Positions 7,325 through 29,803 of a stretch of DNA of 64,000 bases are shown here, piece after piece (position 1 is the first letter of the stretch; each line of letters begins with the position of its first letter). The DNA is from Chitinophagales bacterium (GTDB lineage Bacteria; Bacteroidota; Bacteroidia; Chitinophagales; CAIOSU01), in contig JBBDNB010000048.1 of assembly GCA_040877935.1 (NCBI GenBank), forward strand, positions 1 through 64,000. Direction: 5' to 3'. The position numbers and the translations under genes were made by a program. The notes under the pieces are model-generated. The model searched no databases. It had not been told where the DNA came from and saw only the letters and a program-made list of their open reading frames with translations.

Positions 7325-10306
7325 TTAATCGTTCTTTTTCATCCTATTAATCTTCACCCTATACCCCCTAATCCTACTAATCTCTGGTTTCTGTTTTTTG
7401 ATTGTGGGTTTAAATATTTCGTAGAATCCTCTATAATTCAATAGTCTTATTTTCTTCCTTTCATCCTTTTGAAGTACAGTGCCATGCAACTTCTTAATTG
7501 CATCTAAATTTTTATCCGATTCAGAAATTAAAAACACCTTTTCATATCCTTCTTCTAAACATTTTTGGATATTCCTCACCTCATATTCAGCGGTATTCGT
7601 AACAGAAACCTCAACAGCAAACTTCTTTCCATCTTTTAATAAACTCACATCAACACGCCCACCATTGGGGAGCTGTTCTTCTATCGTAGCTTTATATCCA
7701 TGACTTTCAGCCAGTTTTTTAACTTTCTCCTGCAGTTGTCGGTGCAATGATTTTTCTTTTCGTTTTTCATGATCTGAAATGAATTGCTTTACGCTTTCAT
7801 CAAAATCCTTACTTTTCGGTTCTGGTATTTGAGGTTTTACAACATCAGCACTACTTGTTTTTTCTTCCGCTTCCTTTTCAGACTCTTTAGGTGGTTCAGG
7901 AGGTCTATGCCTGCTTTGACATTCAACCGGATGGGAGTAGTGTTTTCTAGAATGCTCAATAATTTTATCAACCACTTGCTTATCCTCATGGCTTTTGACT
8001 TCATACGTCACCAAGTTACAATCCCGGTCTCTTTGGCCTAATCTGCAGATTGCTTCTCCAACACTGAGGTTTTGCAAATCACCACTATCAAAAAAGGAAA
8101 AGCCACTTTCTAATTTCTTGGCATCAAAATCACCAACCCTAAAACATATGCGTGTAGCTGGATTAGAAAGCACCGAATTGGCAAGTTCTGCATCACGAGT
8201 GCCAAGCTGTGCAATGTCCTGATGGGCTAATACCAATCCCAATCCGTATTTCCTGGTACCGGAAAGAATTCCTTTCATGGATGGAGTCATAAAGTTTTGG
8301 AATTCATCCATATACAGGAAGTACGGGTTACGCCTATCTTTAGAAATATTCTGACGTGATAGGGCTGCCTGATAGAGCTTGGCGACAAAAAGCGTACCCA
8401 ACAAATAGCTATTGTCTTCACCAATTAACCCCTGGGGTAACTTTATCAAAAGAGTTTTTCCCGAATTGATAATATCAGCAATATTGAGGCCGTCCTTTTG
8501 AGCCACCATGTTTCTGATAATCTTTGGCCGCAAGAAAGTGTCTAGGCGGGTCAATAGTGGCATAAGGGAATATCTCTTCAGCATAGGGAAATCCTGTTTC
8601 CAATATAATAGGGTCATGTCATCCTCTACCGTTTCTAGAAATTCCTCTCTAAATTTCTGATTAGTGAGAAACTGCCTCAAATCCATGAGTGTACCTCCCT
8701 CTGAGCTTTCTAAAAAGGCATTGATGGCATGGGACAGCACAGCAGTCATTTGATCACCCCAACTGGTGGCATGTTCTTGAAACATAGAAACCAGGTCAGA
8801 AGAGAGGGTGATTTTTTCAACTTCACTTTGAGCAGATAACGGATTAAAGCCAATAGGGTATTCAGTATCTGATGGATCTACAAGAACAACATTCTCGGCC
8901 TGTGAATCGGGAATGCGGGAAAGTATGCTGTCGATAAGGTCTCCATGTGGATCAAGGACGGCACAACCCACACCAGCCTTGATATCTTGATCGATAAGGT
9001 TGAGGAGTAGGTTGGATTTTCCAGTGCCGGTTGCCCCAATGATGTGAAGGTGTCGCAATCGGGCCTGCAAATCTAAATAAACCTCACGCTCTTGACCGCC
9101 ATGTACATTGCTCCCAAGGAGAAATGTAGCGTCTTTTGGATTGGGCGGTGCTTCTTTTGTCTTTCGCACACCTCCAAATATGATGCGGTGGGCGATTGCG
9201 CTTTGTGGAATGTGAACCAATGATACAAGCTCATCCATGCTGAGGATCATACCAGCTCTACGGGTCTGACGGGTTATCACGTCATTGATGTGATCCTTTC
9301 TTGAAATATTGTCATTATCAAGCGGAATCAGGGAATTACCCTCCGGGTTATCAAATATCGCTAAGGATTGTGTAATCTGTCGAATGATGTCCAAACTCCG
9401 TATATTAGAATTGCCTTCACCGATAACACGGATTGATACCGATAATAGCGGAGAACGGAGCTTTTCTTCTGCCAGGTCTGTGATTTCAGGCGCATCGAGA
9501 AAAAACGGTTGCCCGGTATCATCACGCACAGCTTTTCGTATGTCGGTAGCCCAGGGAGCTGTCGTGGGAGAAACAAGAATTTGGACAGCACCAACTTCAC
9601 CCAACCTCACCATATGCAAAGCCCCCATAAGGCCATTTAATACTTCGGTATGATTGCCCTCGTGGATGTTAAGGGGGAGCATAAATTCATCTGATAAGGC
9701 AAAATCAATGACCTGGGCAGTTTTTGAATCGGCTAATAATACTTCCAGTATGTATTTTTCTTCTTTGATGATTACCCCGGGGAAATGCACATTGAGCTGT
9801 GCGTATACACGTTCATAATCATCGCGGTGTACCGAAATGTACAATGATCTTTTTCTCCCATCAGCCAGATATTCAAAAGAAATGGGGCTTCCTATATGGC
9901 GTAGGTTGCTGATAAAGTCCTTCATGGACTGAACACTACCCTGAAAGGGTTCGGTAAATCCAAGATGTAATTCCCTGTAGCATCCATATTCCTCTTCTCC
10001 TACCTCGTGAGGGGTAATTGGGAATCTTGCTTGAAGGTAGTCTTCAATATCATCCTGATGGATTGCTTCCACTTTCGAGGTGGTATCGATCAAACGGGCA
10101 ACACTTGATTGAATCGTGCTCAATAGCGTGTGTCGCTTTCCATCATCGGTAGTTTGGGTGTTAAGTGGGAGCAGATGCCGTTCAAAGGGAATATAGGGCG
10201 GCTCAAGGCGAATTGGGGTGGTGTGGGTATGCCAGCCACGTCCACGAATCTCCCATGCATAGAATTGAGCCGTGAGAAAGTCGGTATTTGAAATTTTAGG
10301 GTGCAT
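7325..10306 (-). CDS. TraG/VirD4-type ATPase fused to a nuclease-like domain
   Basis: A 993-aa protein. Residues 1-400 form an N-terminal region typical of this mobile-element ATPase group. A P-loop ATPase of the HerA/TraG/VirD4 class follows, with Walker A Gly-Ala-Thr-Gly-Thr-Gly-Lys-Ser at 424-431, Leu-Asp-Pro-His-Gly-Asp-Leu at 451-457, Walker B Tyr-Met-Asp-Glu-Phe at 665-669 and Leu-Ala-His-Gln at 693-696. After a Pro/Glu/Lys-rich linker (about 800-845), residues 850-950 look like a PD-(D/E)XK restriction-type fold, with Gly-Gly-Arg-Val-Asp-Val (Asp886) and Phe-Ala-Val-Glu-Val (Glu899); the usual Lys is replaced. The family moves DNA in conjugation. It overlaps the membrane-protein gene upstream by one base and is more GC-rich than the cargo. 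Confidence 0.75.
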   Translation of the reverse strand: MHPKISNTDFLTAQFYAWEIRGRGWHTHTTPIRLEPPYIPFERHLLPLNTQTTDDGKRHTLLSTIQSSVARLIDTTSKVEAIHQDDIEDYLQARFPITPHEVGEEEYGCYRELHLGFTEPFQGSVQSMKDFISNLRHIGSPISFEYLADGRKRSLYISVHRDDYERVYAQLNVHFPGVIIKEEKYILEVLLADSKTAQVIDFALSDEFMLPLNIHEGNHTEVLNGLMGALHMVRLGEVGAVQILVSPTTAPWATDIRKAVRDDTGQPFFLDAPEITDLAEEKLRSPLLSVSIRVIGEGNSNIRSLDIIRQITQSLAIFDNPEGNSLIPLDNDNISRKDHINDVITRQTRRAGMILSMDELVSLVHIPQSAIAHRIIFGGVRKTKEAPPNPKDATFLLGSNVHGGQEREVYLDLQARLRHLHIIGATGTGKSNLLLNLIDQDIKAGVGCAVLDPHGDLIDSILSRIPDSQAENVVLVDPSDTEYPIGFNPLSAQSEVEKITLSSDLVSMFQEHATSWGDQMTAVLSHAINAFLESSEGGTLMDLRQFLTNQKFREEFLETVEDDMTLLYWKQDFPMLKRYSLMPLLTRLDTFLRPKIIRNMVAQKDGLNIADIINSGKTLLIKLPQGLIGEDNSYLLGTLFVAKLYQAALSRQNISKDRRNPYFLYMDEFQNFMTPSMKGILSGTRKYGLGLVLAHQDIAQLGTRDAELANSVLSNPATRICFRVGDFDAKKLESGFSFFDSGDLQNLSVGEAICRLGQRDRDCNLVTYEVKSHEDKQVVDKIIEHSRKHYSHPVECQSRHRPPEPPKESEKEAEEKTSSADVVKPQIPEPKSKDFDESVKQFISDHEKRKEKSLHRQLQEKVKKLAESHGYKATIEEQLPNGGRVDVSLLKDGKKFAVEVSVTNTAEYEVRNIQKCLEEGYEKVFLISESDKNLDAIKKLHGTVLQKDERKKIRLLNYRGFYEIFKPTIKKQKPEISRIRGYRVKINRMKKND

Positions 10307-10881
10307 TATCCTTTCAAGAGATCAGTATGGGTAGGTTTTTTCTGCTCTTGGGTGAGCCCTTGTGAGTCATGATCCTTCAATATTGAATCTATCAATTCCA
10401 CGACCCTTGAATGTACCATAGACTGAAACATGCTGTTTGTATCTATTTTGTAGTAGGTATTGGGTACAATGAGGTTTAATAGTGGTTTTCCAATTACCGG
10501 AATCACCAGAAATACTTGATGCCACATAGGGCCTTTTTCAAAGAGCCACCAAGAGAAAAAATAACCATTGCCAAAAGGTGCGGCACAAACATCGATCACA
10601 CGCCTTTTCCAAGTGATGCGTAGATAGGAGCGTTTGGCTGAAAACATAAAGTTTCCTTCACTGAGATTTACTGTTTTGGTTTCAATGTCTTCAACACCAC
10701 TGTTGTGAATCTTTTCGGAAAGTTGATTGTAGAATTCGTGGGTTGAATAATTAAAATCATCGACTGATTGCCTCCATGAACCTAATGACTCAGAAGGTAT
10801 CCAGCCCCTTGTGAGGCGGTATATTGCAACAATGATGATAAAGCCAATGAAAATCTTGAAAAGGATAGAAACAACAGCCAT
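10306..10881 (-). CDS. Membrane-anchored partner of the TraG-like ATPase
   Basis: A 191-aa protein with one N-terminal transmembrane helix (about residues 5-24, Ile/Phe/Val-rich) and a soluble remainder. A second, shorter hydrophobic stretch lies around residues 120-140 (Gln-Val-Phe-Leu-Val-Ile-Pro-Val-Ile-Gly). I do not recognise a named family. Its stop overlaps the start of the 993-aa ATPase by one base (ATGA type), so the two are co-translated. A membrane tether or receptor for that ATPase is the natural inference. A hairpin sits just before its start codon. Confidence 0.6.
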   Translation of the reverse strand: MAVVSILFKIFIGFIIIVAIYRLTRGWIPSESLGSWRQSVDDFNYSTHEFYNQLSEKIHNSGVEDIETKTVNLSEGNFMFSAKRSYLRITWKRRVIDVCAAPFGNGYFFSWWLFEKGPMWHQVFLVIPVIGKPLLNLIVPNTYYKIDTNSMFQSMVHSRVVELIDSILKDHDSQGLTQEQKKPTHTDLLKG

Positions 10882-10886
10882 ACTTG

Positions 10887-10910
10887 AGGGATTTACATAT
10901 TAATATCCCT
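10887..10910 (-). promoter_or_regulatory. Hairpin just upstream of the 191-aa gene start
   Basis: Six-base arms AGGGAT and ATCCCT flank a 12-nt loop, and the hairpin ends five bases before the ATG at 10881. It is the weakest of five start-adjacent hairpins on backbone genes of this element and has no T tract. Confidence 0.4.
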
Positions 10911-10965
10911 AAAGTATGAAAAATAACTGAAAGTATTAACATGAATTCTCAAATTTACCAAAAAT

Positions 10966-10996
10966 AAAAAGCAATATGATAATCATATTGCTTTTT
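10966..10996 (-). terminator. Terminator of the 93-aa gene
   Basis: Near-perfect palindrome: arms GCAATATGA and TCATATTGC flanked by A5 on one side and T5 on the other. It lies 6 bases downstream of the minus-strand gene ending at 11003 and could act in both directions. Confidence 0.75.
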
Positions 10997-11002
10997 AACT
11001 TT

Positions 11003-11284
11003 TCAAGTATTTACATTTAACTCAATAATTCGTTCTAAGCGAGAATATTGATCTAAAATTTTAATTAGTAAATAACTTCTATTGCTGTTATTACGTGCAA
11101 TTTTTGTCATTTGAAAATGTATAACTTCATCTTCATCAATTGCATAAGGAATAGACTCCTTATCTAATTCGCGGAAGAATTGTTTTTTTGCTCCGCTTTT
11201 TAGATAATCTAGATCTAAACTTATCACCGTATCTTTTGGGAATAATAAATGAACTTTTGAATCATGCATATATTTTTTATTCAT
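11003..11284 (-). CDS. Hypothetical protein, 93 aa
   Basis: A small soluble protein of unknown family. It begins with several Lys/His residues, carries a Leu-Asp-Leu-Asp-Tyr-Leu segment near residue 25 and ends in Glu-Leu-Asn-Val-Asn-Thr. A good terminator directly follows it, which supports it as a real gene. It is transcribed divergently from the 1064-aa cyclase-like gene, with about 106 bases between them, so the two may share a regulatory region. A regulator or antidote of that protein is possible but only by position. Confidence 0.5.
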   Translation of the reverse strand: MNKKYMHDSKVHLLFPKDTVISLDLDYLKSGAKKQFFRELDKESIPYAIDEDEVIHFQMTKIARNNSNRSYLLIKILDQYSRLERIIELNVNT

Positions 11285-11390
11285 TATATAATAGCCAATC
11301 TCTGAAAGTCAAGTTAATAGTTGTTTGTTTTGTAAAAAAATAGCACTTTTGCAAATCAACTACTGATTAGAAATAAGGAAAGTATTTAAT

Positions 11391-14300
11391 TTGTTAAAGT
11401 CACAGGAAATAAGGATCTCAGAATTCTCACGTAAATATTCTAGTGATGCTAAGAAATGGGGGGAGAATATTGGTGCTAGTGGATCAAGTATTCTAGCAAT
11501 CTCGCGTAAAAGCCCTAGATTAATTGAACTTTTAGTTAGGGATAAGATTCTAGCTCCTCAAATCCTATCCTCGGTTTTTAGTGAACACTCAATACCTTAT
11601 ATAACTCCAAACATTAAAAAGATAAAAGTAGTTGACGATTCTGTTTTGTATGGGTCTACGATTACGAATGTTTTAAAGAAAATCAATGAAGTTGGAGATG
11701 GTTCTAAAAAACAGATTGAGGTAACACCATTCAAATATTCAATTAACACGCCTTCGAGGGTAAAAGAAATTATTGACAGGAATGTTGCAACTCCTATCTT
11801 GGAAAATGAAATACCAAATTATGTAGGAAGCTTAATTTCCTCCTTTAAGTTATTGGGAAAACCTTATGATGTAGAACATCCAATCCTGTATGTATATGGA
11901 GATTTTAGTGATCTTGAAATGGTAGATCTCAAGTTTCAAACAATTGCAAATGATTTTGAAACAATTAGTTACATTAAAAACTCTAATGGTTCTTATTTGG
12001 ATTCATATACTCTTTTGTTTAAAGAAGATGATTCTTGTGGAAATAAGTCAATATTAACTAAGTTTCGTTTCTTTATAAATGAAGAAAAGAATCGATTATC
12101 AATTGTTCCTATAGCACTTCGCAATCTTAGCGAATCAGATGTGAATAACATGGCGTCTGATAATGCGTATTTGAATTCTCTTTGGGAGAAGTTGTATGGT
12201 GCATTTATGAAGAATGAAAGTAAAAAATCAAGCTCGAGATCGTTAGTTGTATTTATAAACTACTTTTATTCCCTAAGCTTTTTCCAAGAACATAGATGCC
12301 TTTTAGAAAACTATTTTGATTTAACCAATTTACATGTCGACAAATTTGACTTGCAATTAATTGTAGGTTTGGAATTATCATCTGATTTCAGGAAAAATGT
12401 AACTAAAATAATCTCCTCCAGAAAGTTATTTAATTTAACCATAAAAGGTAATGGACAAAATAATTTAAAGTCTAATATAATTCCTAAAGAATACGAAGAT
12501 GATTATAACAAATATCTAGATGAACAACTTGAAAAAAGTTTCAGCGTTTATGACATAGTGAGTACTATTTTTTATTGTCAACATGCTAAACTTGAGATAC
12601 CAACAAGAAAAGATGAGAATTACAATCAAGAAAGTCGATTGAAGTTTGGAGTAACTTTTAAATCAATTGAGGAAATAGTAAGAAACCGAACTAAAGAAAA
12701 TGTCGAAGTAAATGAATTACATAGAGTTCTAGATAGTTTGATTGACTCAGGAAATGTAGTTCCAAAGTACATGAATATTTCTAATAGTGAATCTAAGGTT
12801 TGGGGTAGAGGCTTTAGGGTCGGAGAATGTTCATCAAAAGCAACTCAAAGATCTTTATTGATCATTAAGCTTTTAAAAAATTTGTCTGAATTCTTTGAAG
12901 ATAAACATATCCCTGCAATTTTACTTGAAAAATATCTTGTGTTAACATTGTCAGATAGTTTTGGTTTTGAGGATCTAGATCGTAAGCCTATTTCAGGATT
13001 GGGAATATTTATAAAGTACGATAAATATGGAGCTCGTTCTTGTTTTACAGAAGGCAATGAAAACAGTTATTTTCTTGAATGGGCTAAAGATAGAGGGTTG
13101 ATATTTCAAAATCCAAAAAGTAAAAAATATCATATAGCTAAAGATATTTCTGAAAATTATGATTTAAACGAACTAGACATTGTAAAAAGTCTTGATTATA
13201 ATTTTAAAGACTTAGCTGAGTTTTGCAAAGTGGTAGGTGATCAAGAATTGCTTGTTGCAATTACTAGTTTAGGATCTAGCTCTGAATATTGGAAAGCTTT
13301 ATCAGCAGAACTTAGACTCTGGCTTTATCATCGAAAACACAATATTTATAACTGCCTTAATGAGTTGTTATATCTTGAAAAAAATAACACTGCAAAACTT
13401 GAAAGTGTAAATGAAACACTTTATGAAAATGCTAATTTTACAGCTCAAGTTACTCTAAAAAAAGAATTGTACAATGATTTTGATAATGTAATATTGAATA
13501 TTGACAAACGCGTTAAAGAATACGATAAAAGAATTGTAGGTAGAATATGGGATACACTTAGAGAGAAAATCAAAATAAGAAAAATTTCTGATTCTAAAGA
13601 GTCTGATTTAAATGAATTAATTATCACTTTAAGAATTGCACATATTGTTTCGTCAGCATGTAGAACTTTTTTAACTAAGGCTGGATTCAAGACAGATGAA
13701 AAACATAAAGACAAGACTATATCATTTAGACTAGAGTCAATTCTTAATGTCATTGAAGCTTCTAATGATAGGAATGACGAGCACTACTCTCACTTGTTAT
13801 ACGGTGTGTTTCAGAAATCACAAGTAATTAAAAACATCAAAATATTATTGATTGATTTAAATAAACACGAAGACACTTTAAGTTATGATGAATTAATAAA
13901 AAGATGCTATAGAGTATTTGTACATGTAGCTGATACGTGTGACGAATGCTATTCGTTATTCGCTGATATAGAGCATAAATCAAAATCGTTAGAAAATAAT
14001 AGTTTTCAGACATTACCTCCTCCACAGTATCTTGTGATGTGGGATGTTATTGGGTCAACTTCAATTGAAGATAGAGTTGGCCTTGAACAAAATGTTTTGT
14101 TTCCTATTACTGAAAAGATAAACTTAATTCTGAAAGAAGAGGTCGTAACGTTATCAGCAGATGATGGTAATTTTGCTATCGTTGAAAACTTTATGGATGT
14201 GTTATCTATATTTTCAATAATAAAGTCATGCAGTACAGAAAACAACGTCAGGTTTAGGATTGGATGTGATGTGAATTTTCAAGGCGAGTTAAGGTATTAT

Positions 14301-14585
14301 CCTAACCGCAAGATACATGCTGGAAGAGAGTTTGAAGTTGTTTCAAGAACCACCAATTTTTATAAAGAGATTTCAAATGATGATTCAACTTGGACTTCTA
14401 AGAAACCAGTCATTGAACCAGACAGAACTTATCTTATAATTACTGAGTTTGTTAAACGAATTGCAGAATCCAACAATGATTGGGAAATTAGCAATGATTA
14501 TACTTTAGAAGAATTACCCGGAACGTACCAGCCTAGGCTTAGAAAAAATTCCGTTATCCCCTATAAAGTATTCACCATAACTTAG
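11391..14585 (+). CDS. Phosphoribosyltransferase-like / class III nucleotide cyclase-like fusion, 1064 aa
   Basis: The N-terminal 110 residues look like a type I phosphoribosyltransferase: an Ala-Ile-Ser-Arg-Lys strand end (about 35-40) and the PRPP-loop pattern Val-Val-Asp-Asp-Ser-Val-Leu-Tyr-Gly-Ser-Thr at 80-90. The middle 750 residues are helical; a winged-helix-like stretch is possible around 440-500. The last 185 residues resemble a class III nucleotide cyclase: Trp-Asp-Val-Ile-Gly-Ser-Thr at 884-890, Ala-Asp-Asp-Gly at 923-926 and an Arg at 986 where the transition-state Arg is expected. The partner Asn is not obvious. An in-frame stop lies at 11364 and no ATG occurs for more than 150 codons, so the TTG at 11391 is the likely start. 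It is a single AT-rich gene among backbone modules; a defence or signalling role is inferred. Confidence 0.55.
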   Translation: MLKSQEIRISEFSRKYSSDAKKWGENIGASGSSILAISRKSPRLIELLVRDKILAPQILSSVFSEHSIPYITPNIKKIKVVDDSVLYGSTITNVLKKINEVGDGSKKQIEVTPFKYSINTPSRVKEIIDRNVATPILENEIPNYVGSLISSFKLLGKPYDVEHPILYVYGDFSDLEMVDLKFQTIANDFETISYIKNSNGSYLDSYTLLFKEDDSCGNKSILTKFRFFINEEKNRLSIVPIALRNLSESDVNNMASDNAYLNSLWEKLYGAFMKNESKKSSSRSLVVFINYFYSLSFFQEHRCLLENYFDLTNLHVDKFDLQLIVGLELSSDFRKNVTKIISSRKLFNLTIKGNGQNNLKSNIIPKEYEDDYNKYLDEQLEKSFSVYDIVSTIFYCQHAKLEIPTRKDENYNQESRLKFGVTFKSIEEIVRNRTKENVEVNELHRVLDSLIDSGNVVPKYMNISNSESKVWGRGFRVGECSSKATQRSLLIIKLLKNLSEFFEDKHIPAILLEKYLVLTLSDSFGFEDLDRKPISGLGIFIKYDKYGARSCFTEGNENSYFLEWAKDRGLIFQNPKSKKYHIAKDISENYDLNELDIVKSLDYNFKDLAEFCKVVGDQELLVAITSLGSSSEYWKALSAELRLWLYHRKHNIYNCLNELLYLEKNNTAKLESVNETLYENANFTAQVTLKKELYNDFDNVILNIDKRVKEYDKRIVGRIWDTLREKIKIRKISDSKESDLNELIITLRIAHIVSSACRTFLTKAGFKTDEKHKDKTISFRLESILNVIEASNDRNDEHYSHLLYGVFQKSQVIKNIKILLIDLNKHEDTLSYDELIKRCYRVFVHVADTCDECYSLFADIEHKSKSLENNSFQTLPPPQYLVMWDVIGSTSIEDRVGLEQNVLFPITEKINLILKEEVVTLSADDGNFAIVENFMDVLSIFSIIKSCSTENNVRFRIGCDVNFQGELRYYPNRKIHAGREFEVVSRTTNFYKEISNDDSTWTSKKPVIEPDRTYLIITEFVKRIAESNNDWEISNDYTLEELPGTYQPRLRKNSVIPYKVFTIT

Positions 14586-14619
14586 TGAAGCCTCCTATTG
14601 ATGCTTGGCCACATTGCCC

Positions 14620-14946
14620 TTACTCTTTCTCCAAGAGCTCATAAAACTGCTTCCATTTTTCTATTGCCATTTGCCTTACTGAATCAGGATAAGTGAAAAA
14701 TGGTTTTCCCATATAATGGTTATAATCAAAATCAAAACCTTGATCTTGGTAGATTATAATGTTGTTCATCATCATACCGCTATTTATTGGAAGTTCAACG
14801 ATTTGCATACCCCTTGTACTGCCATCATCAAAGCTTTTTAATGGGTCGAAATGTACGGTGCTTGAATCTGTTTCCAGTATTATACCATCAGCCCCATAGC
14901 AATATGCGGTTAGGATTATGAGAATGAAAATGATTAGGTTTTTCAT
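14620..14946 (-). CDS. Small secreted protein, 108 aa
   Basis: It begins with a classic signal peptide (Met-Lys-Asn, then a Leu/Ile/Phe core, ending near Cys-Tyr-Gly-Ala). Mature residues include Asp/Ser-rich and Met-Met-Met-Asn-Asn segments and a charged C terminus. No family is recognised. It follows the FISUMP lipoprotein gene on the same strand with a 34-base gap, so the two are probably co-transcribed. Its tail converges with the cyclase-like gene 34 bases away. Confidence 0.55.
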   Translation of the reverse strand: MKNLIIFILIILTAYCYGADGIILETDSSTVHFDPLKSFDDGSTRGMQIVELPINSGMMMNNIIIYQDQGFDFDYNHYMGKPFFTYPDSVRQMAIEKWKQFYELLEKE

Positions 14947-14980
14947 AATTAAGCGGTTTTAAATCTTTCCAAGTAAGGGC

Positions 14981-15724
14981 TTATTTATCTTTAATACATC
15001 TACAGTATGCACCGTCAAATACACTTACATCACCTAATGTCACATCATCATCAGTTAAACGTAGTGTGGTGATTTGAGTGGAAGCTGAGCCTGAAATATA
15101 CGATGTCATAAATTGAACTAATTCACCAACATACACAAATTTAGAAATTGAACCTCCATCCCTATATCCGCCTGGATAGGCATTGAAACCAGTACTATTA
15201 TTTCCCTGGGTTCCATCCCAGTCAGATGTTGATTTCACTTCGTTTGCTTTCTCCTCTTTAGAAGGACCTTCTAAATCATTCTTCACAAAACTTTGTAATT
15301 CGGTCCATGTAGGTAACCTCCATCCTTCGGGACAAATATTCAAGGAATTATCATTTGCTAATTGGATAGTGTGTCCTTTATACATTTTTCCATACTTTTC
15401 TTCAGTATTCGGATCATTATTAAGGTAGCACCATGCTGCACCATCTGCATCATACCAATCTTGGCTAGTTGGTTTATGAGGTATAGGAGTGCCATTGTTG
15501 AATTTTGTAACTCGCAGATTTTCTGCCATCCAACAGAAATTTCCAGTAGAGATAACTTTGTAGGTATTCCCATCAATATCCGTTACCGTTGTAGTTGTCC
15601 CACAGGCGTTACTTTGCTGGTTGTTATTATTATTATTATTGTTTTTGTTGTCTTCTGCTGAATCATCTTTCTCACATGAACTCAATGCTAACATCGAGAT
15701 GAATAATAAGGTGAAGAATTTCAT
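14981..15724 (-). CDS. FISUMP-domain lipoprotein
   Basis: A 247-aa protein when started at the ATG at 15724. This start gives a lipoprotein signal with lipobox Ala-Leu-Ser-Ser-Cys; an in-frame ATG at 15748 adds eight residues unlike a signal. A low-complexity Asn run (about 9 Asn) links the lipid anchor to the domain. The body matches the Fibrobacter succinogenes major paralogous domain: Asp-Gly-Asn-Thr-Tyr, Cys-Trp-Met-Ala-Glu-Asn-Leu-Arg, Ile-Cys-Pro-Glu-Gly-Trp-Arg-Leu-Pro, then a Gly-Gly-Tyr-Arg-Asp segment and a Cys-Arg-Cys end. These are cell-surface proteins of unknown function common in Bacteroidota. Confidence 0.8.
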   Translation of the reverse strand: MKFFTLLFISMLALSSCEKDDSAEDNKNNNNNNNNQQSNACGTTTTVTDIDGNTYKVISTGNFCWMAENLRVTKFNNGTPIPHKPTSQDWYDADGAAWCYLNNDPNTEEKYGKMYKGHTIQLANDNSLNICPEGWRLPTWTELQSFVKNDLEGPSKEEKANEVKSTSDWDGTQGNNSTGFNAYPGGYRDGGSISKFVYVGELVQFMTSYISGSASTQITTLRLTDDDVTLGDVSVFDGAYCRCIKDK

Positions 15725-15904
15725 TTGGTGTACAATACAGTAATTCATGATTTGCTTTATTTTTCGTTTAAAAATTTGATTTAGATATGCATATTGTGAT
15801 TAGCATTGCTATACGAATATAGAAAAAATAATTTAAAATTCTACTTAAAAGATGGTGATTTATAAGAGGGTGTTTAAAATGTGTCTAATATAGAGTTTTG
15901 GACT

Positions 15905-16168
15905 ATGTCAAAACATAGTTCAATAGTTGAATCTCAGATAGCAAATCTGGGTAAGCGCATAAAGGAGTTAAGGACTTCCCAAGGATATACAAGCCAAGAG
16001 AAATTTGCGTACCAGCATGGGTTTAATAGGACTCAATATGCTCGATACGAAACAGGGCAGGATATTACATTTTCAAACCTTGTTCGGTTGTCAATTGCTT
16101 TTGGTATTACCCTGGAAGAATTCTTCAGCGAAGGCTTTGAAGGCGAATCAAATCCCGATACAAAATAG
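15905..16168 (+). CDS. XRE-family regulator, 87 aa
   Basis: A small helix-turn-helix protein. The domain covers about residues 14-75: Leu-Gly-Lys-Arg-Ile-Lys-Glu-Leu-Arg, Gln-Glu-Lys-Phe-Ala (with an unusual Tyr-Gln-His-Gly insertion before helix 3), Tyr-Glu-Thr-Gly and Leu-Glu-Glu-Phe-Phe. A GTG at 15881 is in frame, but the ATG at 15905 gives the usual length. The gene converges on the TraG-like ATPase gene and their 3' ends overlap by 44 bases. It is probably a regulator of the element. Confidence 0.75.
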   Translation: MSKHSSIVESQIANLGKRIKELRTSQGYTSQEKFAYQHGFNRTQYARYETGQDITFSNLVRLSIAFGITLEEFFSEGFEGESNPDTK

Positions 16169-17303
16169 TCTTGGCACTGAACGGTCTTGAAGTTTTTCCG
16201 TGAATAGCTAATTTGATATAGCAAAAGTAATTTGGGAGATTAATAAGGTCTTCCATTTCAATTTCAGGGTACATTTCAAGAGCTATAAACTGTGCATCTT
16301 CTGCACCTATACGAAAGGAAATAAGCGTACCGATATTTCCGATAATGGCGTGCTTGATATCATCTTCTAGCTGTTTGAGATATTGATGTGCCAATATCAT
16401 CCCAACCTTGAATTTTCTCAGCTCAGAAAGCATATTGATCAGGGTAAGGGTTGTGTAATTGTGAAATTCATCGATATAGACCATGCACGGCACCCGTTTA
16501 TCTTCATCGGTATCTACACGGCTGAAAGCCGCTGAGCTGATGGTTGAAATGAACAGTGCGCCAAGAATATGGGCTGCATCTTCTCCAAGATGCCCCTTTG
16601 ATAGATTGACCAGAATGATCTTCTTTTCATCGATGGCTTTTCGCAATGAAACTTCTTCTGGATTGTCAACCAATGCCCGCTGTATTACCGGATACGAAAG
16701 CATCCCGCCAACCTTGTTTAAGGCCGGCAGGAAATCATATTTATTATATTGCGGAAACTCCTTCTTCCAAAAAAGCCGAAGGTTTTTGTTTTGTACATAC
16801 CTCACTGCATTATTCCTAAAATCCTTGTCCAATAGCATCTTGGGAATATCATCGATTCGAGCCTTTGGCTGGTCGAGAAGTGTGAGAATGGTATTTCTCA
16901 AAAGGTGTTCAAGTTTCACGCCCCAGGCATCAGACCAAAGCTTTTTCATGGATTCCAAAATACTCGAAGCGATCAAGGCTCTTTTTTCATAGGAAACTTT
17001 TCTAAAGGGGTTGTAGCGTAATTTCAACTCGGTATCGGGAAAATTGAAGTACAGGACATCACCTTTCCTGTGTTTTGGAATTTCCCGATGCACGGTTTTA
17101 ACCAGGTCTCCATGCGGATCAATGAGGCATACTCCTTTTTGAGCATGGATATCCTGCAATATCATACTGTGAATCAATGAGGATTTGCCCGTTCCGGTCT
17201 TTCCCAAAATATAGCTATGGGCAAACTTATCACACTGAAGAACCCCAAAGAGTTGAGGGTTATCGCGAAAATATGTAGTTCCTAAATAAGTGGTATCTGA
17301 CAT
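16125..17303 (-). CDS. Second TraG/VirD4-type ATPase, 392 aa
   Basis: A compact P-loop ATPase related to the C-terminal ATPase core of the 993-aa protein. Walker A is Gly-Lys-Thr-Gly-Thr-Gly-Lys-Ser (34-41), followed by Leu-Ile-Asp-Pro-His-Gly-Asp-Leu, Walker B Val-Tyr-Ile-Asp-Glu-Phe-His and Ile-Leu-Ala-His-Gln. The frame extends to 17363, but the ATG at 17303 lies just after a hairpin and gives a Met-Ser-Asp-Thr start, so it is preferred. It lacks the large N-terminal region and the nuclease tail, and is cytosolic by sequence. It is the last gene of a leftward cluster with the 162-aa and DUF2958 genes. The role is probably DNA transfer or packaging of the element. Confidence 0.7.
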   Translation of the reverse strand: MSDTTYLGTTYFRDNPQLFGVLQCDKFAHSYILGKTGTGKSSLIHSMILQDIHAQKGVCLIDPHGDLVKTVHREIPKHRKGDVLYFNFPDTELKLRYNPFRKVSYEKRALIASSILESMKKLWSDAWGVKLEHLLRNTILTLLDQPKARIDDIPKMLLDKDFRNNAVRYVQNKNLRLFWKKEFPQYNKYDFLPALNKVGGMLSYPVIQRALVDNPEEVSLRKAIDEKKIILVNLSKGHLGEDAAHILGALFISTISSAAFSRVDTDEDKRVPCMVYIDEFHNYTTLTLINMLSELRKFKVGMILAHQYLKQLEDDIKHAIIGNIGTLISFRIGAEDAQFIALEMYPEIEMEDLINLPNYFCYIKLAIHGKTSRPFSAKTILYRDLIRLQSLR

Positions 17304-17311
17304 AGGGGTAT

Positions 17312-17343
17312 AAAAAAGGCCATCCCCACGTTTGAGGATGACC
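17312..17343 (-). promoter_or_regulatory. Terminator-like hairpin directly before the ATPase start
   Basis: On the minus strand, arms GGTCATCC and GGATGGCC (one G-U pair) are followed by six T residues, and the ATG of the 392-aa ATPase follows 8 bases later. It also lies just after the stop of the upstream gene at 17350, so it could terminate that message or attenuate entry into the ATPase gene. Confidence 0.6.
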
Positions 17344-17349
17344 CGAAGG

Positions 17350-17838
17350 CTAAACGGTTTCAAGTTTGGTAGCCAGATGATCTTTCAATCTCTCCAATCG
17401 AATATCCGAGATATGAAGGAGCAATTTTGCAATGTGCTCCTTATCCCAACGATTGTGGTATGTAACACCTTGCCACTTGGCAAATTCAATACACTTTTCC
17501 AGTTCATACGGCATCAATGGAACATCGCTTACCTTGTTATAGGTGGCGATGGTGTCCCAATTGAAATGAGAACAGAACAAATGAAAAAGGTAGATTACGG
17601 GAGCGACACAAGAGCCGTCAATTTCCTGACCAAGTTGAAATGGTCTTTTGCTCCTGATGTTAAGATGCTTCGTTCTCTGCAAGATGTTATAGGTAGATGG
17701 CCATGAGGGAAGGTTCATGGTCGCATATCTTACAAACGTCTTGTTTCGAATGAAGCATACTGCACTGTATATCCCTCCTCTTTGGTTGTACGTGACCTCT
17801 ATGGAGAATTTCTCGTTTCTCAATTTCTGCACTTTCAT
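17350..17838 (-). CDS. Hypothetical element protein, 162 aa
   Basis: The start at 17838 is chosen because its ATG overlaps the stop of the DUF2958 gene as ATGA; an in-frame ATG exists at 17871. The protein is basic, with no membrane segment. It contains a Tyr-Asn-Gln-Arg-Gly-Gly segment near the N terminus and a Cys-His/aromatic-rich middle (Leu-Phe-His-Leu-Phe-Cys-Ser-His-Phe-Asn-Trp-Asp). The family is unknown to me. Coupling with DUF2958 and the ATPase suggests a function in maintenance or transfer of the element. Confidence 0.6.
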   Translation of the reverse strand: MKVQKLRNEKFSIEVTYNQRGGIYSAVCFIRNKTFVRYATMNLPSWPSTYNILQRTKHLNIRSKRPFQLGQEIDGSCVAPVIYLFHLFCSHFNWDTIATYNKVSDVPLMPYELEKCIEFAKWQGVTYHNRWDKEHIAKLLLHISDIRLERLKDHLATKLETV

Positions 17839-18213: not shown

Positions 18214-18254
18214 TAGCAGTGTAAATTTGCTTGATGGGCAAATTTGCAGTGCTA
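18214..18254. promoter_or_regulatory. Operator-like palindrome, copy 1
   Basis: Core AAATTTGC, 7-nt spacer, GCAAATTT is a perfect inverted repeat. It extends to 17-bp arms (TAGCA.TG.AAATTTGC) with two mismatches. It sits between the divergent DUF2958 gene and the 59-aa gene. One full 17-base arm is repeated exactly at 29717-29733, in the same orientation relative to the downstream XRE gene. It is probably bound by an element-encoded regulator. Confidence 0.6.
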
Positions 18255-20303: not shown

Positions 20304-20636
20304 ATGAACTACAAATGCACCACGTTTATACCCAATATCCTCTTTGATGAATATCTCTCTCATCTGTCAGAATCTGAATTAAAGGTCATTCTAGTCATCA
20401 TCAGGCAAACCATAGGTTGGTATAACAAGGTTACCAGGAAGAGAAAGTACCGGGATAGGATATCTCATTCACAATTTCGGGAGAAAACAGGTCTTTCTTC
20501 TCGGTCTATCACTAAAGCGATTGATCGATTAGTTATCAGAAAACTTATTGAAGTGACTGATTACAGAGGTCAGGTGCTTTTGTTGTCTGGTGATCGGAAA
20601 GGAAAAGTAAGTCTGTATTACAGGGTAAAATTGTAA
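20304..20636 (+). CDS. Replication-protein-like winged-helix protein, 110 aa
   Basis: The protein resembles the N-terminal winged-helix domain of phage/plasmid replication organisers: a start with Phe-Ile-Pro-Asn-Ile-Leu-Phe-Asp-Glu-Tyr, then Ser-Glu-Leu-Lys-Val-Ile-Leu, Thr-Ile-Gly-Trp, Thr-Gly-Leu-Ser-Ser-Arg-Ser-Ile, and a C-terminal wing with Lys-Val-Ser-Leu-Tyr-Tyr. It starts 11 bases after the recombinase stop, so the two are an operon. It probably binds DNA at an origin or controls recombination. It is shorter than full replication initiators. Confidence 0.6.
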   Translation: MNYKCTTFIPNILFDEYLSHLSESELKVILVIIRQTIGWYNKVTRKRKYRDRISHSQFREKTGLSSRSITKAIDRLVIRKLIEVTDYRGQVLLLSGDRKGKVSLYYRVKL

Positions 20637-21062
20637 CTGGACATAGGAAAAATATTCCATGAACCTCCGCAGAATCTGCGGATAACAAAACTAAAAACTA
20701 AATATATATAACTAATCAAAGTCTAATATTTGTTCAGTACGACAGAATTCAGAATCTTTTGCTCTCAAGATATACTGACCAGCAGAAGGTATTTTAAATT
20801 CTTCAGAACTTTGCCATCCAGTATGGTTTACCAGTTTGTATTATGGATATACAAAATTTATAGGGAATATAACAAATAAATAGCAAAAAGGGGTTCGCAT
20901 AACTCAGGCACTAATTTAAATGCTTTTGATATAGCGCATTTGCCTAGCTTTCAGAAAAATGAAGAATCTGTTTGCTAAACAAAAAAGTAAATGAATAAGA
21001 TCAAAATAAATAAAGCGGAAAACGGAGGGATTATAGAGTGAATAATAAAATAAAAATATTAT
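20637..21062. other. Intergenic DNA with a 43-codon gene relic
   Basis: No intact gene. On the minus strand 20712-20840 reads in frame to a TAG stop and begins after a TAA. It contains Gly-Trp-Gln-Ser-Ser-Glu-Glu-Phe and Pro-Ser-Ala-Gly-Gln-Tyr-Ile-Leu, like the last strands of an immunoglobulin-like domain of a Bacteroidota surface protein. It is probably a relic of a deleted gene. Confidence 0.4.
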
Positions 21063-22859
21063 CTAAATAATATCATATTTATGTGTATTTCTTATCAGAT
21101 GTGGTGTAGGAGTTAATCCAAATGGGTTATACCTAGAGATTTTTCTACCCTTTTCTGATATTAAGTGTAAATGCTTTTTTGCACGTGAGGTTAAAACATA
21201 AAGCATTTTTTGTGCATTTTGATCCCCATTAGCATCAGTAAAGTGTGGAATCCAGCTATCAAGTAAGCCGAAACCTATAACGACGTCAAATTCTGTGCCT
21301 TTGACTCCATGTATTGTTGATATAGTAATTCCTTGCTTTTGTTTGAATACTTTTCGAAACGTATCTATGTGTCCAATATATTCTAGCCCCTCTTTTTGAA
21401 GTCTTTTTATTCGAGATTCAGAACTGCTAAAAAAAGCTTCGTAATGTTCAGAAAGGAATTTATTTCTACCTATTTCTACTCCTAAATAATTACTCACATT
21501 TTGAAATGCTTCATCTAAATATTCTAGTCCGCCAGTTTTCTTTATGTCTATTCCATTAGTAAATCTAAGGAAAGACTTCTTACTGATTGAGGAAGTATCG
21601 ATTTGATTATTAGATAATTCGTTTAATACTTCCCCAGACCATCTAAGACGTTTCAAATATAAATTCGGAGAAGGTTCAGTTAGAATAATGCGAGATATTT
21701 TATACCAGAAATTTTCTATGTCTTTAGAAAACGGTGTCATTCCTGGTCCATTAAAATTTTGATCAGGCATTCGAGCAATAAGATTTCTAGTTATCATTGC
21801 CAAGTGCACCCATTGAGGTGCGGCTATACATATTTCATTAGGCGATATTTGATGTTCTTTTATGCTTATATTAAGCAAACGCTCAATTTCAATTTCAAGA
21901 TCTTTGTGGCTAATCAGTTGGTTATAAGTAACGATACTATTAAAGTCCTTATTTATACCTTTCGCGTTAATAGAGTTATTGTATGTTTTGTAATTTTCAA
22001 AATATTCAATTATTTTTTTTGATGATCTGTAGTTATTTTTCAAGCTGTAAGAATCATTTAAACTAAAACCAATCAATTCATCTAAATCATATTTTTTCAT
22101 AGGAAATCCGCCCATTGTCTGATAAATTGATTGGTTAGGGTCACCGACAATAAATGTTTTAGTGCTCCCTCTTCCTGCACGTAGAATATTGCAAATAATA
22201 TGATACTGAATTTCTTTCGTGTCTTGGTATTCATCTAATAGAATGAATGGAAATAAATTAGATAAAATAGAACTGATTTTCCTTTCTTTAATAAGAATTT
22301 GATATGCGTAATAAAGTATTAATTCAAAATCTATCTCTCCATTCTCCTTCAATATGTATAAATATTCATTAACTATATCTCTTACGCCTTCATTTTTTCT
22401 TGTATCTGAACAAGAAATTTCAAAACCCTGAGTTGTAGCACGATAATTTATATCCCAGATTGTTATGTTAGAATAGGATTCGCATAGTTCTTTTAAAATC
22501 TTTTCAGATTTATGGATGCTTGTAACAGTGTAGCCATCCTTTAGATCGTCATGGTAAAGGGAGTAGGGTTTTAAAATCCATTCTAGGCAAAATGAGTGTA
22601 TAGTCCCTATCCATAATTGAGAAGTGTCTACCCCGAGTAGTTCCACTCTTTCTTTTATTTCATCAGCTGCTAAATTTGTGTAGGTGATTGCTATTACAAA
22701 CTTTCTTTGGTTTTTCAATTTCGAAAGCTCCAGAGCAATTTTATAAGTGAGTGTTCTAGTTTTACCACTTCCAGGGCACGAATTAAGTAGTATACTGTCG
22801 TTCTCTAGTATTGCAGCAGACTGCTCTTCATTTAGTTCTGTATTGCTCCAGGTGAACAT
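21063..22859 (-). CDS. gajB: UvrD/PcrA-type helicase, GajB-like
   Basis: A 598-aa superfamily 1 helicase with all key motifs: Walker A Cys-Pro-Gly-Ser-Gly-Lys-Thr, motif II Leu-Leu-Asp-Glu-Tyr-Gln-Asp, motif III Val-Gly-Asp-Pro-Asn-Gln-Ser-Ile-Tyr, motif IV Asn-Tyr-Arg-Ser, motif V Ser-Thr-Ile-His-Gly-Val-Lys-Gly-Thr-Glu-Phe and motif VI Thr-Ser-Arg-Ala-Lys. It is encoded 9 bases after an OLD-family nuclease, the arrangement of the Gabija anti-phage system, in which GajB activates or assists the GajA nuclease. It is somewhat longer than well-known GajB proteins (about 500 aa), so it may be a diverged class 2 OLD-UvrD pair. The symbol rests on this gene order. Confidence 0.7.
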   Translation of the reverse strand: MFTWSNTELNEEQSAAILENDSILLNSCPGSGKTRTLTYKIALELSKLKNQRKFVIAITYTNLAADEIKERVELLGVDTSQLWIGTIHSFCLEWILKPYSLYHDDLKDGYTVTSIHKSEKILKELCESYSNITIWDINYRATTQGFEISCSDTRKNEGVRDIVNEYLYILKENGEIDFELILYYAYQILIKERKISSILSNLFPFILLDEYQDTKEIQYHIICNILRAGRGSTKTFIVGDPNQSIYQTMGGFPMKKYDLDELIGFSLNDSYSLKNNYRSSKKIIEYFENYKTYNNSINAKGINKDFNSIVTYNQLISHKDLEIEIERLLNISIKEHQISPNEICIAAPQWVHLAMITRNLIARMPDQNFNGPGMTPFSKDIENFWYKISRIILTEPSPNLYLKRLRWSGEVLNELSNNQIDTSSISKKSFLRFTNGIDIKKTGGLEYLDEAFQNVSNYLGVEIGRNKFLSEHYEAFFSSSESRIKRLQKEGLEYIGHIDTFRKVFKQKQGITISTIHGVKGTEFDVVIGFGLLDSWIPHFTDANGDQNAQKMLYVLTSRAKKHLHLISEKGRKISRYNPFGLTPTPHLIRNTHKYDII

Positions 22860-22868
22860 CTGATTGGA

Positions 22869-25010
22869 TTATAAAAGATCTAGTAAAACATTTAATTGCT
22901 TGTCTTCAACAACTGTATTTATTTCCTTATTTAGCTCCCCCAACTCACAATTATTATTTAAAAAATTCGATAATTTTAGATATACATCTGAAAAATCTAG
23001 ATAAGGATCAGAATTTTCGTGCTTTTTCAATCTGTAGCCTATTATATTGCAGATTAAGTCAACGCTAAATTCACCTTTTGCAAAAATTATTGCTTTGAGG
23101 ATATACTCTGGAATTATGGTATGGTAATTTACGCGACCACCTATAAGAACTGCTAACCATCCTTTTCCTTTTTTATTAGCCATTGCAAGTATTCTTTTCC
23201 CATATATGCTTACATCTTTACTTGCAAGTTCATTTTTCGAATCTCTTAACTTTGAAGGTTTAGTGTAAACCTCGGATAGTATTTCTTGAGCTGTTGAGGC
23301 ATTTCCACATGCAATAAAATCAACTTCGAAGGTATGAGTTGCGTAAAATGGTTTAATCCAATCGTTAGCTTTACAATACTCATCAAGAACTTTTTTTCTT
23401 CTCAAACCAACTATGCTTGAGTTTTCTATTTTCTCTTTATATTTTTCTGTTTTCTTAGTATCTGATTCATTGATTGTGGTATCGCAAATCTGTGAATCTA
23501 AATCAGTGATTATACTGCATTTTCTCTGAAGTCTCTTTTCATCAAATATTTGTGCAATATTGATGAATCCTGTACTCCGAATATTTATTAAACTTAACCC
23601 AAGTTCATCAAGGCTAACACCTAAAACTTCTTTAACGATGATCGGTATTAAAATCTCCTCCGCATCACCTTCAACCAATATAACTCCCTTGGCAAATAAA
23701 AGGTTACTTCTTACAGCATCCAAATATCTCTCAAGCTTAGCTATATCTTCAGGCTTCAGACCTATTGATGGTTGATATACTTCCGAACAGTTTATTTTTT
23801 TAGATAAAATATTTATGTGCGAAATTTTATTTACTTCTGAAATATGTGTGGAATGCGTAGAGTAAATAATTTGTGTTTCACCATATTCGAGCTTATCAAA
23901 CAATGTTTTTTGAATATGGGTGTGTATATGAGCTTCAGGCTCCTCAATTACAAGAAAATTTGCAACCTTTTCTTTTGATTTGTATTGATATTCTAAAAGT
24001 TTTAGTGCAAGAAAAATAAGATTAGCTCCTCCTAAGCTTAGTTCGTGTATTGCCCCTTCATGAGTCTCTCCAGGTTCACTTATGTATAATCTTAAAGCTT
24101 GTAATAATTTGTTTGCTTCATCAGATAAATTTGACTGGATAGAAAGTGATGCAGGGGAGTAGGTTTCACCGACAGCATCTTTTATCGTTTTTCTAATGTT
24201 TTGTCTTATCTCTTGTACGTCTGGCAGTTCTTCTATGCCTTTATTTAATTCATTTACCATTTGCGAGATGGGTTCATAATCATCTTCTTTTATTTCGACA
24301 CTCTGTTCCTTTAAAAGTGAGAGTAAAGGATTGGTTCTATTATTGTGAAAGTCACTTACAACATCTCTTAAAGCCTTAATAAAAGTAAATGATATTTCTT
24401 TTGATATTGAAAGCTGATGAGGCACTTTAATTCCAAATTTAGAAGAATCAATATCATACTCGAATTTAACATTGTCAAAATCACCAACTAGCTCCTTATA
24501 TGCTTCTGGATCGTTGAAATTAGCTGTACTTTTTCCTGTAAACCATGTTTCATATTTATCATTTAAATTATTTGGATTTATCTCGTCTAAAATTTCCTGT
24601 AAACCTTCCTGATCTCCCTCTTCTAATTCAGATAGTCGATATCTAATGTCGGCCTTAGGTCTAAAAAATAAGGTATAACTTGCTTTATTTACTTTGTCTT
24701 CGTCTTCTAAATTTCCTAAACTATGTACAAATAATGCTTGCACTGCTTCATCATCCGGGATATCGCTAAATTCTATGCTAATTATTATCCAATGCCCTTT
24801 CCAGTCATCAATTGATCTGTTAAAATCATCATGTCCTAGTTTATAGGCGTACTGATATGATGAATCATCGAGTAATAGCCTAAGTGCTCTAAATATATTT
24901 GTCTTACCAGCACCATTTTCTCCAATGATTGTATTAATCCCTTTCTGAAAATGAAATTGAGCGTTCTTAAAGTTTCTATAGTTGACAATTGATAGTTTTG
25001 ATATATGCAT
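22869..25010 (-). CDS. gajA: OLD-family ATPase/TOPRIM nuclease, GajA-like
   Basis: A 713-aa protein with an ABC/SMC-type ATPase followed by a TOPRIM nuclease. The ATPase has Walker A Gly-Glu-Asn-Gly-Ala-Gly-Lys-Thr at about 33-40, signature Leu-Ser-Leu-Gly-Gly-Ala-Asn at about 328, and Walker B Leu-Val-Ile-Glu-Glu-Pro-Glu-Ala. The TOPRIM part has Val-Glu-Gly-Asp-Ala-Glu-Glu-Ile near residue 450 and Thr-Asp-Leu-Asp-Ser near 505. This is the architecture of overcoming-lysogenization-defect nucleases and of GajA, which cuts DNA when nucleotides are depleted in phage infection. It is co-directional with the helicase. At 713 aa it is longer than typical GajA, mostly at the C terminus. Confidence 0.75.
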   Translation of the reverse strand: MHISKLSIVNYRNFKNAQFHFQKGINTIIGENGAGKTNIFRALRLLLDDSSYQYAYKLGHDDFNRSIDDWKGHWIIISIEFSDIPDDEAVQALFVHSLGNLEDEDKVNKASYTLFFRPKADIRYRLSELEEGDQEGLQEILDEINPNNLNDKYETWFTGKSTANFNDPEAYKELVGDFDNVKFEYDIDSSKFGIKVPHQLSISKEISFTFIKALRDVVSDFHNNRTNPLLSLLKEQSVEIKEDDYEPISQMVNELNKGIEELPDVQEIRQNIRKTIKDAVGETYSPASLSIQSNLSDEANKLLQALRLYISEPGETHEGAIHELSLGGANLIFLALKLLEYQYKSKEKVANFLVIEEPEAHIHTHIQKTLFDKLEYGETQIIYSTHSTHISEVNKISHINILSKKINCSEVYQPSIGLKPEDIAKLERYLDAVRSNLLFAKGVILVEGDAEEILIPIIVKEVLGVSLDELGLSLINIRSTGFINIAQIFDEKRLQRKCSIITDLDSQICDTTINESDTKKTEKYKEKIENSSIVGLRRKKVLDEYCKANDWIKPFYATHTFEVDFIACGNASTAQEILSEVYTKPSKLRDSKNELASKDVSIYGKRILAMANKKGKGWLAVLIGGRVNYHTIIPEYILKAIIFAKGEFSVDLICNIIGYRLKKHENSDPYLDFSDVYLKLSNFLNNNCELGELNKEINTVVEDKQLNVLLDLL

Positions 25011-25438
25011 ATGTTATATTTAATATATTATCATCAGTATAGCATCTATTTTATAGAATAACATTATGAAAATAAAGCTACTCTCTGTCTATTCCAAGAA
25101 TAATATTATGCTATAGTCATCTTCTAAATAGTTCAGAATACTCTGATGGTCTTTGTGGATATACCCTCAAAGGTGCTATCTATCTACATAATTTAACAAT
25201 TGTAAGATTTTATATATCTAGTAGCAAATTGAAGGAAATAAACTCATGATCCTAAACAGAGAAGACCCCAGGAACCAGAATTATTGTCAACATACATTTC
25301 AAAAGTCATCAAACGCTTGATGATTTGAAAATTGATAAAAAAATTCAACCACAAGAATCGTGGGCTTACCTTCTCAAGGATAAAATACTCTTGCCCTATA
25401 GTAGAAAGCTAAAATAGTTTATATTCGGATGTGGTAAA
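25011..25438. other. Intergenic DNA between the Gabija-like pair and xseA
   Basis: It holds promoters for the divergent gene sets but no certain gene. On the plus strand 25253-25414 is an open stretch without a start codon, ending in TAG, with plausible coding content (Ile-Val-Asn-Ile-His-Phe, Trp-Ala-Tyr-Leu-Leu-Lys). It may be the tail of a lost gene. Confidence 0.35.
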
Positions 25439-25459
25439 ATGGCAGTATGGCAATTAAAA

Positions 25460-26815: not shown

Positions 26816-27065
26816 TATCAACTTAACCGAAAACCTCAAGAAGCTAGAAGAAATTGCTGATTGGTTTGATGAGCAAGAGGATGTTGATGTCGAAGAAGGC
26901 CTCATAAAAGTCAAAGAGGCATCAGGACTAATGAAAGAAAGCCAAGACCGCCTCACACAGGTAAAGAATGAATTCAATGAGATAAAAAAAGAAATTACAG
27001 GATCAATAGATGAAGTATCCGAAGAAGAAAGCCCATCAAAAGAAAGTGACAACCTTCCTTTTTAA
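26793..27065 (+). CDS. xseB: Exonuclease VII small subunit-like protein
   Basis: A 90-aa acidic protein overlapping the 3' end of xseA by 23 bases. It has the XseB pattern of a helical hairpin: Asn-Leu-Lys-Lys-Leu-Glu-Glu-Ile-Ala-Asp-Trp-Phe, a Val-Glu-Glu-Gly-Leu segment and a second Lys/Glu-rich helix. XseB subunits wrap the XseA coiled coil. The overlap and pairing give the assignment, since such short helices alone are weak evidence. The Asp-Val-Asp-Val-Glu-Glu-Gly spacing matches the usual Leu-Glu-Glu-x-Leu-x-x-Phe-Glu-x-Gly region only loosely. Confidence 0.65.
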   Translation: MTKKKTTNINLTENLKKLEEIADWFDEQEDVDVEEGLIKVKEASGLMKESQDRLTQVKNEFNEIKKEITGSIDEVSEEESPSKESDNLPF

Positions 27066-27207
27066 CTCCTCTTTATAAAATTATTACTTTCTTTAAGATA
27101 TGGGATGAAATTATAGCGGATAGTTTTCGATAACAACTAATAACCACCAAGATATCGACAAAGTGAAACAGTCCTTTAACTTCGAATTTAATTAGATACC
27201 TGAAAAA

Positions 27208-29272: not shown

Positions 29273-29701
29273 GTAACTTTATTTCATAAGACTTAATGAC
29301 TAGCGCCCTATTATCAAAGATTAAACTGAAATAAGGCTTGCCGATATTTAACAATAGTGGATGAAAATAAGACATAATATCTATAATTTTAAAAAACAAG
29401 TGCAGAAGATAGAATTTATGCAGAAAACTTTTTTCATTATATCAACGCAAAAACTTCACATAACAAAATAAAAAACAAAATAAATAAACGCCCCTTACCT
29501 TATGGTATAATCCCAACAATAATTCATTTCACTTTCATAGCTGATAGGATGCTAATCTGTGAATTTTTAATTCACAGAATTGAGCCTTCTGATCAGGTGT
29601 GAAAGCATACATGAGTTGTATTACCAATAACCATTAAGAGCTTGGCTCTTGAGTATCCGCTAAAGGATAGGTTTGGAATAATACGCTGATACACCACAAA
29701 A
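29273..29701. other. Long leader region with hairpins upstream of the XRE/RuvC-like operon
   Basis: No gene is seen in about 430 bases. It contains a perfect inverted repeat (29556-29578) and a shorter hairpin around 29637-29652 (AAGAGC/CTCTT). The density of dyads suggests a structured leader, a small RNA, or an origin of transfer or replication. None can be assigned from sequence alone. Confidence 0.35.
29556..29578. repeat. Perfect 10-bp inverted repeat
   Basis: Arms TCTGTGAATT and AATTCACAGA are separated by three T residues. There is no T tract after it and no coding sequence on either side for more than 200 bases, so it is more like a structural or protein-binding element than a terminator. 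Confidence 0.55.
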
Positions 29702-29733
29702 AAATTTGCTCATTAAGCAAATTTACACTGCTA
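29702..29733 (+). promoter_or_regulatory. Operator-like palindrome, copy 2
   Basis: AAATTTGC, 7-nt spacer, GCAAATTT, then ACACTGCTA. The last 17 bases are identical to the reverse complement of the left arm of the site at 18214-18254. It lies 70 bases upstream of the XRE gene start at 29804; copy 1 lies 64 bases upstream of DUF2958 in the same relative orientation. Confidence 0.6.
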
Positions 29734-29764
29734 CGATAAGCCTGGATTTTCATCTATGCTTTGA

Positions 29765-29800: not shown

Positions 29801-29803
29801 GTT

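Follow-up and report, generated by a model that had tools for sequence, protein, structure and literature searches.

Pycsar cyclases possess class III catalytic motifs, in which two metal-binding aspartates are required, and they act together with a cyclic-pyrimidine receptor that is separate from the cyclase (PMC11224242). In type III retrons, phosphoribosyltransferase (PRTase) and winged-helix proteins typically serve as the effectors (PMC12548924). The conflict-system PRTases of the PRTase-CE family (PF24390) and the mCpol protein of Panoptes should also be compared with the locus described here. It lies in a window of 64,000 nucleotides, the whole stretch of DNA that was analysed (positions 1 to 64,000 of contig JBBDNB010000048.1 of a Chitinophagales bacterium), and comprises a large gene situated between two VirD4-like genes. 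The preferred explanation, held tentatively and at somewhat less than an even chance, is that this gene could serve a mobile element of Bacteroidota as self-contained, single-gene defence cargo; its product may join a PRTase-like domain, acting as sensor or effector, to a domain derived from a cyclase.

The gene occupies positions 11391–14585 of the plus strand and encodes 1064 aa; it starts with TTG and ends with TAG (14583–14585). An in-frame stop codon precedes the TTG, and no in-frame ATG is located nearby. With the known genes of the window as a reference, codon usage is coding-like in frame 1 only, and this is true for every sixth of the gene's length. Open frames in composition-matched shuffled DNA never exceeded 120 codons (200 shuffles), against 1064 aa here. 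The position and size given by the sequence-only reading are thus confirmed. The G+C content of the gene (about 0.29–0.30) is similar to that of the Gabija genes, versus 0.44 in the 993-aa VirD4-like gene at the boundary of the locus; such a low value is expected for acquired cargo. The close neighbour on the 5′ side is, as had been stated, a divergent 93-aa gene with coding-like codon usage and no assigned function (11003–11284, minus strand), which is separated from the start of the large gene by 106 bp.

The cargo slot is bounded on one side by the 993-aa VirD4/HerA-like gene (7325–10306, minus strand) and a 191-aa gene conserved beside it (10306–10881, minus strand), and on the opposite side by a 412-aa VirD4-like gene (16125–17363, minus strand). 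Both VirD4-like genes are conserved in sister elements, and the same boundary genes flank variable cargo in other Bacteroidota genomes. In one of them (G088; L090, 7267–8852) the slot is occupied by a complete Pycsar pair oriented like the 1064-aa gene (PADLOC: PycTM, 1.1e-31; PycC, 3.7e-120). One slot of G076 contains a type II restriction-modification pair together with a TIR-like protein, the slot of G029 contains two DNA methyltransferases, and a second slot of G076 has only a weak Lamassu-type (LmuA) match. Among the six slots compared, clear anti-phage, restriction-modification or methyltransferase genes occur in three, the weak Lamassu-type match in a fourth, and two look non-defence. 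These contents indicate a cargo site with a clear, though not exclusive, leaning to defence. The 1064-aa gene is a real gene located in this conserved slot. The slot context is the strongest new evidence on the gene, and the link to defence is better supported than could be known from the sequence of the window alone.

Alternatively, the gene could be cargo of another kind, for instance a regulator or a metabolic enzyme. In the two remaining slots (G061 and G084) the cargo looks, from sequence only, lipoprotein-like and metal-efflux-like, and a Fib_succ_major lipoprotein occupies the same slot as the 1064-aa gene itself. This explanation is nevertheless unlikely, given the defence-type contents of the other slots described above, and a large orphan protein is a better fit to fast-evolving defence genes.

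The absence of an adjacent partner effector, pointed out earlier, was borne out: Pfam and PADLOC scans of the neighbours across 7325–17363 revealed no PycTM or PycTIR effector genes, and the gene stands as an isolated large gene in a defence-leaning slot. The statement that defence genes otherwise fill the element holds in part. Gabija is located about 6.5 kb away, but the near neighbours are represented by mobile-element genes, a lipoprotein and unknown genes.

Gabija belongs to a second cargo slot of the window (20304–30151), which lies between a Phage_rep_O-like gene (20304–20636) and an HTH gene (29804–30151). This slot comprises GajB/GajA (21063–25010), an exonuclease VII large-subunit-like gene (25439–26815) and two unknown ORFs (27208–29272). 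In G076 (L092) homologues of its boundary genes are about 225 bp apart, which corresponds to an empty slot. A 32-nt inverted pair (94% matched) is present upstream of the serine recombinase (18214–18245) and upstream of the HTH gene (29702–29733). Since each copy is dyad-like (AAATTTGC...GCAAATTT), the copies are likelier to be shared operators than ends of the element; no clear copies were found in sister elements. Several other features of the window can be mentioned. The 993-aa VirD4/HerA-like protein (7325–10306) has a PADLOC mad8 match over its ATPase part (6.9e-19), and its C-terminal stretch GGRVDVSLLKDGKKFAVEVS resembles, by eye, a PD-(D/E)XK nuclease core. A 1289-aa protein of peptidase family C25 (gingipain-type; E 1.2e-116) is encoded at 51783–55652.

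The residues on which the sequence-only reading was based are all present at the places quoted: VVDDSVLYGST at residues 80–90 (D82, D83), D885, D924/D925/G926 and R986. The first of these motifs (11628–11660, plus strand) has the form of the PRPP loop of type I phosphoribosyltransferases, an acidic pair followed by G-[ST]-T. The pattern was written after the sequence had been seen, and it recurs in 5 of 20,000 shuffles of the protein. The putative PRTase-like region comprises residues 1–180 (11391–11930, plus strand; its end is approximate). On a profile built from PRTases of related genomes, the 1064-aa protein itself being left out, residues 1–180 score 8.9 bits, with the aligned part confined to residues 75–133; one of 1000 shuffles reaches this score, and the reversed sequence gives −0.6. 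The N-terminus is the best location of this profile within the protein, by 9 bits. Accepted divergent conflict-system PRTases (members of PRTase-CE) reach 5.1–9.5 bits with this profile, which makes a PRTase-like PRPP loop reasonable here. The family model PF00156 gave no Pfam match. Taken together, these data moderately support a PRTase-like N-terminus, and the loop proposed earlier stands at the level of divergent conflict-system PRTases.

The likeness to PRTase-CE consists of a diverged PRTase-like domain and of comparable scores when the general profile for PRTases is applied. Membership of this family was rejected, because neither the PF24390 model, which has no match in the protein and none in its own genome, nor a profile of eight local PRTase-CE members (some of them truncated) recognises the 1064-aa protein. 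Elsewhere, a 1039-codon open frame (L015; G118:C16, minus strand, 121–2139) encodes what appears by eye to be an AAA+/STAND-type ATPase with a C-terminal PRTase-CE match, and is another candidate for a fused PRTase conflict protein.

The tentative class III cyclase-like region is represented by residues 880–1064 (14028–14582, plus strand). Two of its landmarks, D885 (14043–14045, plus strand) and D925 (14163–14165, plus strand), align with the first and the second metal-binding aspartates of class III cyclases; R956-I957-G958 is a further landmark. In most unsupervised alignments both aspartates are paired with the metal aspartates and RIG with RIG, whereas one small subset alignment differs. 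The landmarks in this order do not occur in any of 20,000 shuffles of the protein, for a pattern written after the sequence was seen. The register of the catalytic Asn-x3-Arg pair shifts with the alignment (E982/R986 in one, N989/E993 in another), so that the catalytic Arg or Asn could be either R986 or N989 (residues 986–989 lie at 14346–14357, plus strand).

The cyclase profiles, like the PRTase profile, were built without the 1064-aa protein. On the profile of divergent bacterial class III cyclases the C-terminus scores 3.1 bits (reached by 1 of 1000 shuffles), and on a broader class III profile 0.6 bits (17 of 1000); the C-terminus is the best location within the protein. A genuine Pycsar cyclase, which comes from an element of the same kind, scores 44.8 bits on the same profile, and two other cyclases score 90 and 119. 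The Pfam model PF00211 (Guanylate_cyc) is unmatched in the protein at E up to 10. Pairwise alignment with PycC of the sister slot starts at the right motif and is not significant, as 71 of 500 shuffles score as high. A class III cyclase-like C-terminus is therefore weakly supported. The cyclase does not stand as it had been stated, its profile score being at the edge of noise (3 versus 45 bits) and its catalytic Asn/Arg moving with the alignment.

Structure prediction adds to this picture conditionally. AlphaFold without an alignment gave a pLDDT of 29 for the C-terminus. For residues 880–995, with ten viral class III cyclases supplied as the alignment, pLDDT was 66, and most of the strand-helix core reached 81–87. 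The resulting model is closest to the mycobacterial cyclases Rv1900c and Ma1120 (Foldseek E 0.0034; VIA Z 9.0–9.1), a partly circular result, and a designed ferredoxin fold reaches VIA Z 8.6 against it. These matches are not independent evidence, since the alignment given to AlphaFold itself consisted of class III cyclases. The predicted model is compatible with a cyclase fold and is no proof of it.

With class III nucleotidyl cyclases (PF00211) the protein shares the positions of the metal aspartates, and its partly circular model is closest to Rv1900c and Ma1120; it differs in the lack of a Pfam match, the ambiguous catalytic Asn/Arg and a score of 3 bits versus 45–119 in real members. The resemblance to Pycsar consists of the sister element whose slot holds a Pycsar pair oriented in the same way, and of the D..GST, DG and RIG.D landmarks, which align with the PycC of that pair. 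In contrast to the separate short cyclase of Pycsar, the protein is a multidomain one of 1064 aa with no adjacent PycTM or PycTIR. The gene is not filed as Pycsar, as it lacks both a match to the PADLOC PycC models at E up to 1 and a receptor gene next to it. In an IMG/VR viral contig (L146, 2977–4308), a gene for a 280-aa class III cyclase is directly followed by one for a 162-aa protein with membrane-like segments, as seen by eye; this could be a cyclase-effector pair.

Searches with the protein or its pieces gave no significant match in Pfam, PADLOC, PHROGs or PDB sequences, and no NCBIfam model was significant. Two sub-threshold NCBIfam matches coincide with the suspected domains: residues 75–103 match an orotate-PRTase-like family (E 0.098) and residues 907–964 match mCpol (E 0.035). 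The latter is the point of likeness to Panoptes; its 14.7 bits are far below the cut-off of 40 and no partner gene was recognised, and the gene is not filed as Panoptes because of this low score. By tblastn at E up to 10, plasmids gave nothing and phages chance-level matches only. Samples of Bacteroidota relatives and of the order, class and phylum (about 1,650 genome searches, the samples overlapping) returned the gene itself only. Inspected matches at E 0.001–0.1 in these samples were attributed to chance; they comprised DNA gyrase, a 5′-nucleotidase-like protein, a TonB-type receptor and others whose frame was not recoverable as a long ORF. Frames of 1020–1072 aa with class III domains in G015, which appeared to be relatives, were rejected, as their cyclase is N-terminal and is followed by a STAND-type ATPase. 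Scans of 85,000 genomes and IMG/VR, some of them performed with artificial motif-shaped alignments, revealed no relative; such scans detect short peptide patterns only and miss distant relatives, so the family could be rare or fast-evolving and is not necessarily unique.

These results bear on the possibility that both folds are absent and that an orphan protein with some other fold carries the motifs by chance. No family model is significant, one shuffle in 1000 does reach either profile score, and the fold model was supplied with a cyclase alignment, which all speak for it. Yet the two suspected places, and no other part of the protein, each give a weak signal independent of the other, and the PRTase score is on a par with those of accepted divergent PRTases. 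Chance matching is considered quite unlikely.

Another explanation assigns the activity to the N-terminus. The PRTase-like domain could be a toxic effector acting on nucleotides or NAD-like substrates, with the C-terminus as a degenerate nucleotide-binding switch of the cyclase fold, an arrangement resembling the PRTase effectors of type III retrons minus the reverse transcriptase. The N-terminal signal is the stronger of the two, and the catalytic Asn/Arg pair of a cyclase is not intact in any register. Because PRTase and winged-helix proteins are the effectors typical of type III retrons (PMC12548924), this explanation fits nearly as well as the preferred one, and the protein shares with them a PRTase-like domain in a defence-type context. 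However, the protein retains the metal aspartates of the cyclase, both of which a domain that is purely degenerate could have lost, and the genome is without a reverse transcriptase (no RVT_1 match, whereas the positive controls worked). The size of the 1064-aa protein is also very different from that of the retron effectors. An identity as a type III retron was itself rejected, since the genome lacks a reverse transcriptase; in addition, Rfam detected no RNA, retron RNA included, in 9000–17000. A toxic PRTase effector of this type is regarded as fairly unlikely.

The preferred explanation, self-contained defence cargo, is based on the Pycsar, restriction-modification/TIR-like and methyltransferase contents of the sister slots (G088, G076 and G029) and on the low G+C. 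It also relies on a PRTase-like score equal to that of accepted divergent PRTases, on the ordered cyclase landmarks with both aspartates aligned, and on the compatible, partly circular model. Counted against it are the cyclase score (3 versus 45 bits), the unmatched PF00211 model, the ambiguous catalytic Asn/Arg, the lack of an adjacent effector and of homologues, and the two of six slots that look non-defence. Of the self-contained sensor-cyclase or toxin proposed originally, the isolated gene, its defence-leaning slot and the PRTase-like loop stand, and the cyclase as then stated does not.

In the proposed mechanism, which builds on two weakly supported folds, the PRTase-like domain would read, or act on, a nucleotide or PRPP state altered during infection, and the long middle part would relay the signal. 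The C-terminal cyclase-derived domain could then bind or cyclise an NTP. Its output may reach an unlinked receptor for cyclic nucleotides or act inside the same protein, and would arrest the cell. An unlinked receptor is possible in view of the three CRP-sized cNMP-binding proteins in the genome, where nothing matches PF00211, the model of class III cyclases. In the most specific form, a one-protein cyclic-nucleotide defence, the PRTase-fold domain would sense a disturbance of PRPP or nucleotides and activate the cyclase of the same chain, whose product would reach host receptors or the protein itself. Only a small chance is given to this form, and to our knowledge no cyclic-mononucleotide defence of the one-protein PRTase-cyclase type has been described.

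If both domains are real and active, metabolite sensing and second-messenger synthesis would be united in one defence gene, unlike the two-gene Pycsar. Whichever explanation holds, the slot between the two VirD4-like genes is a place where further uncharacterised defence genes of Bacteroidota can be sought.
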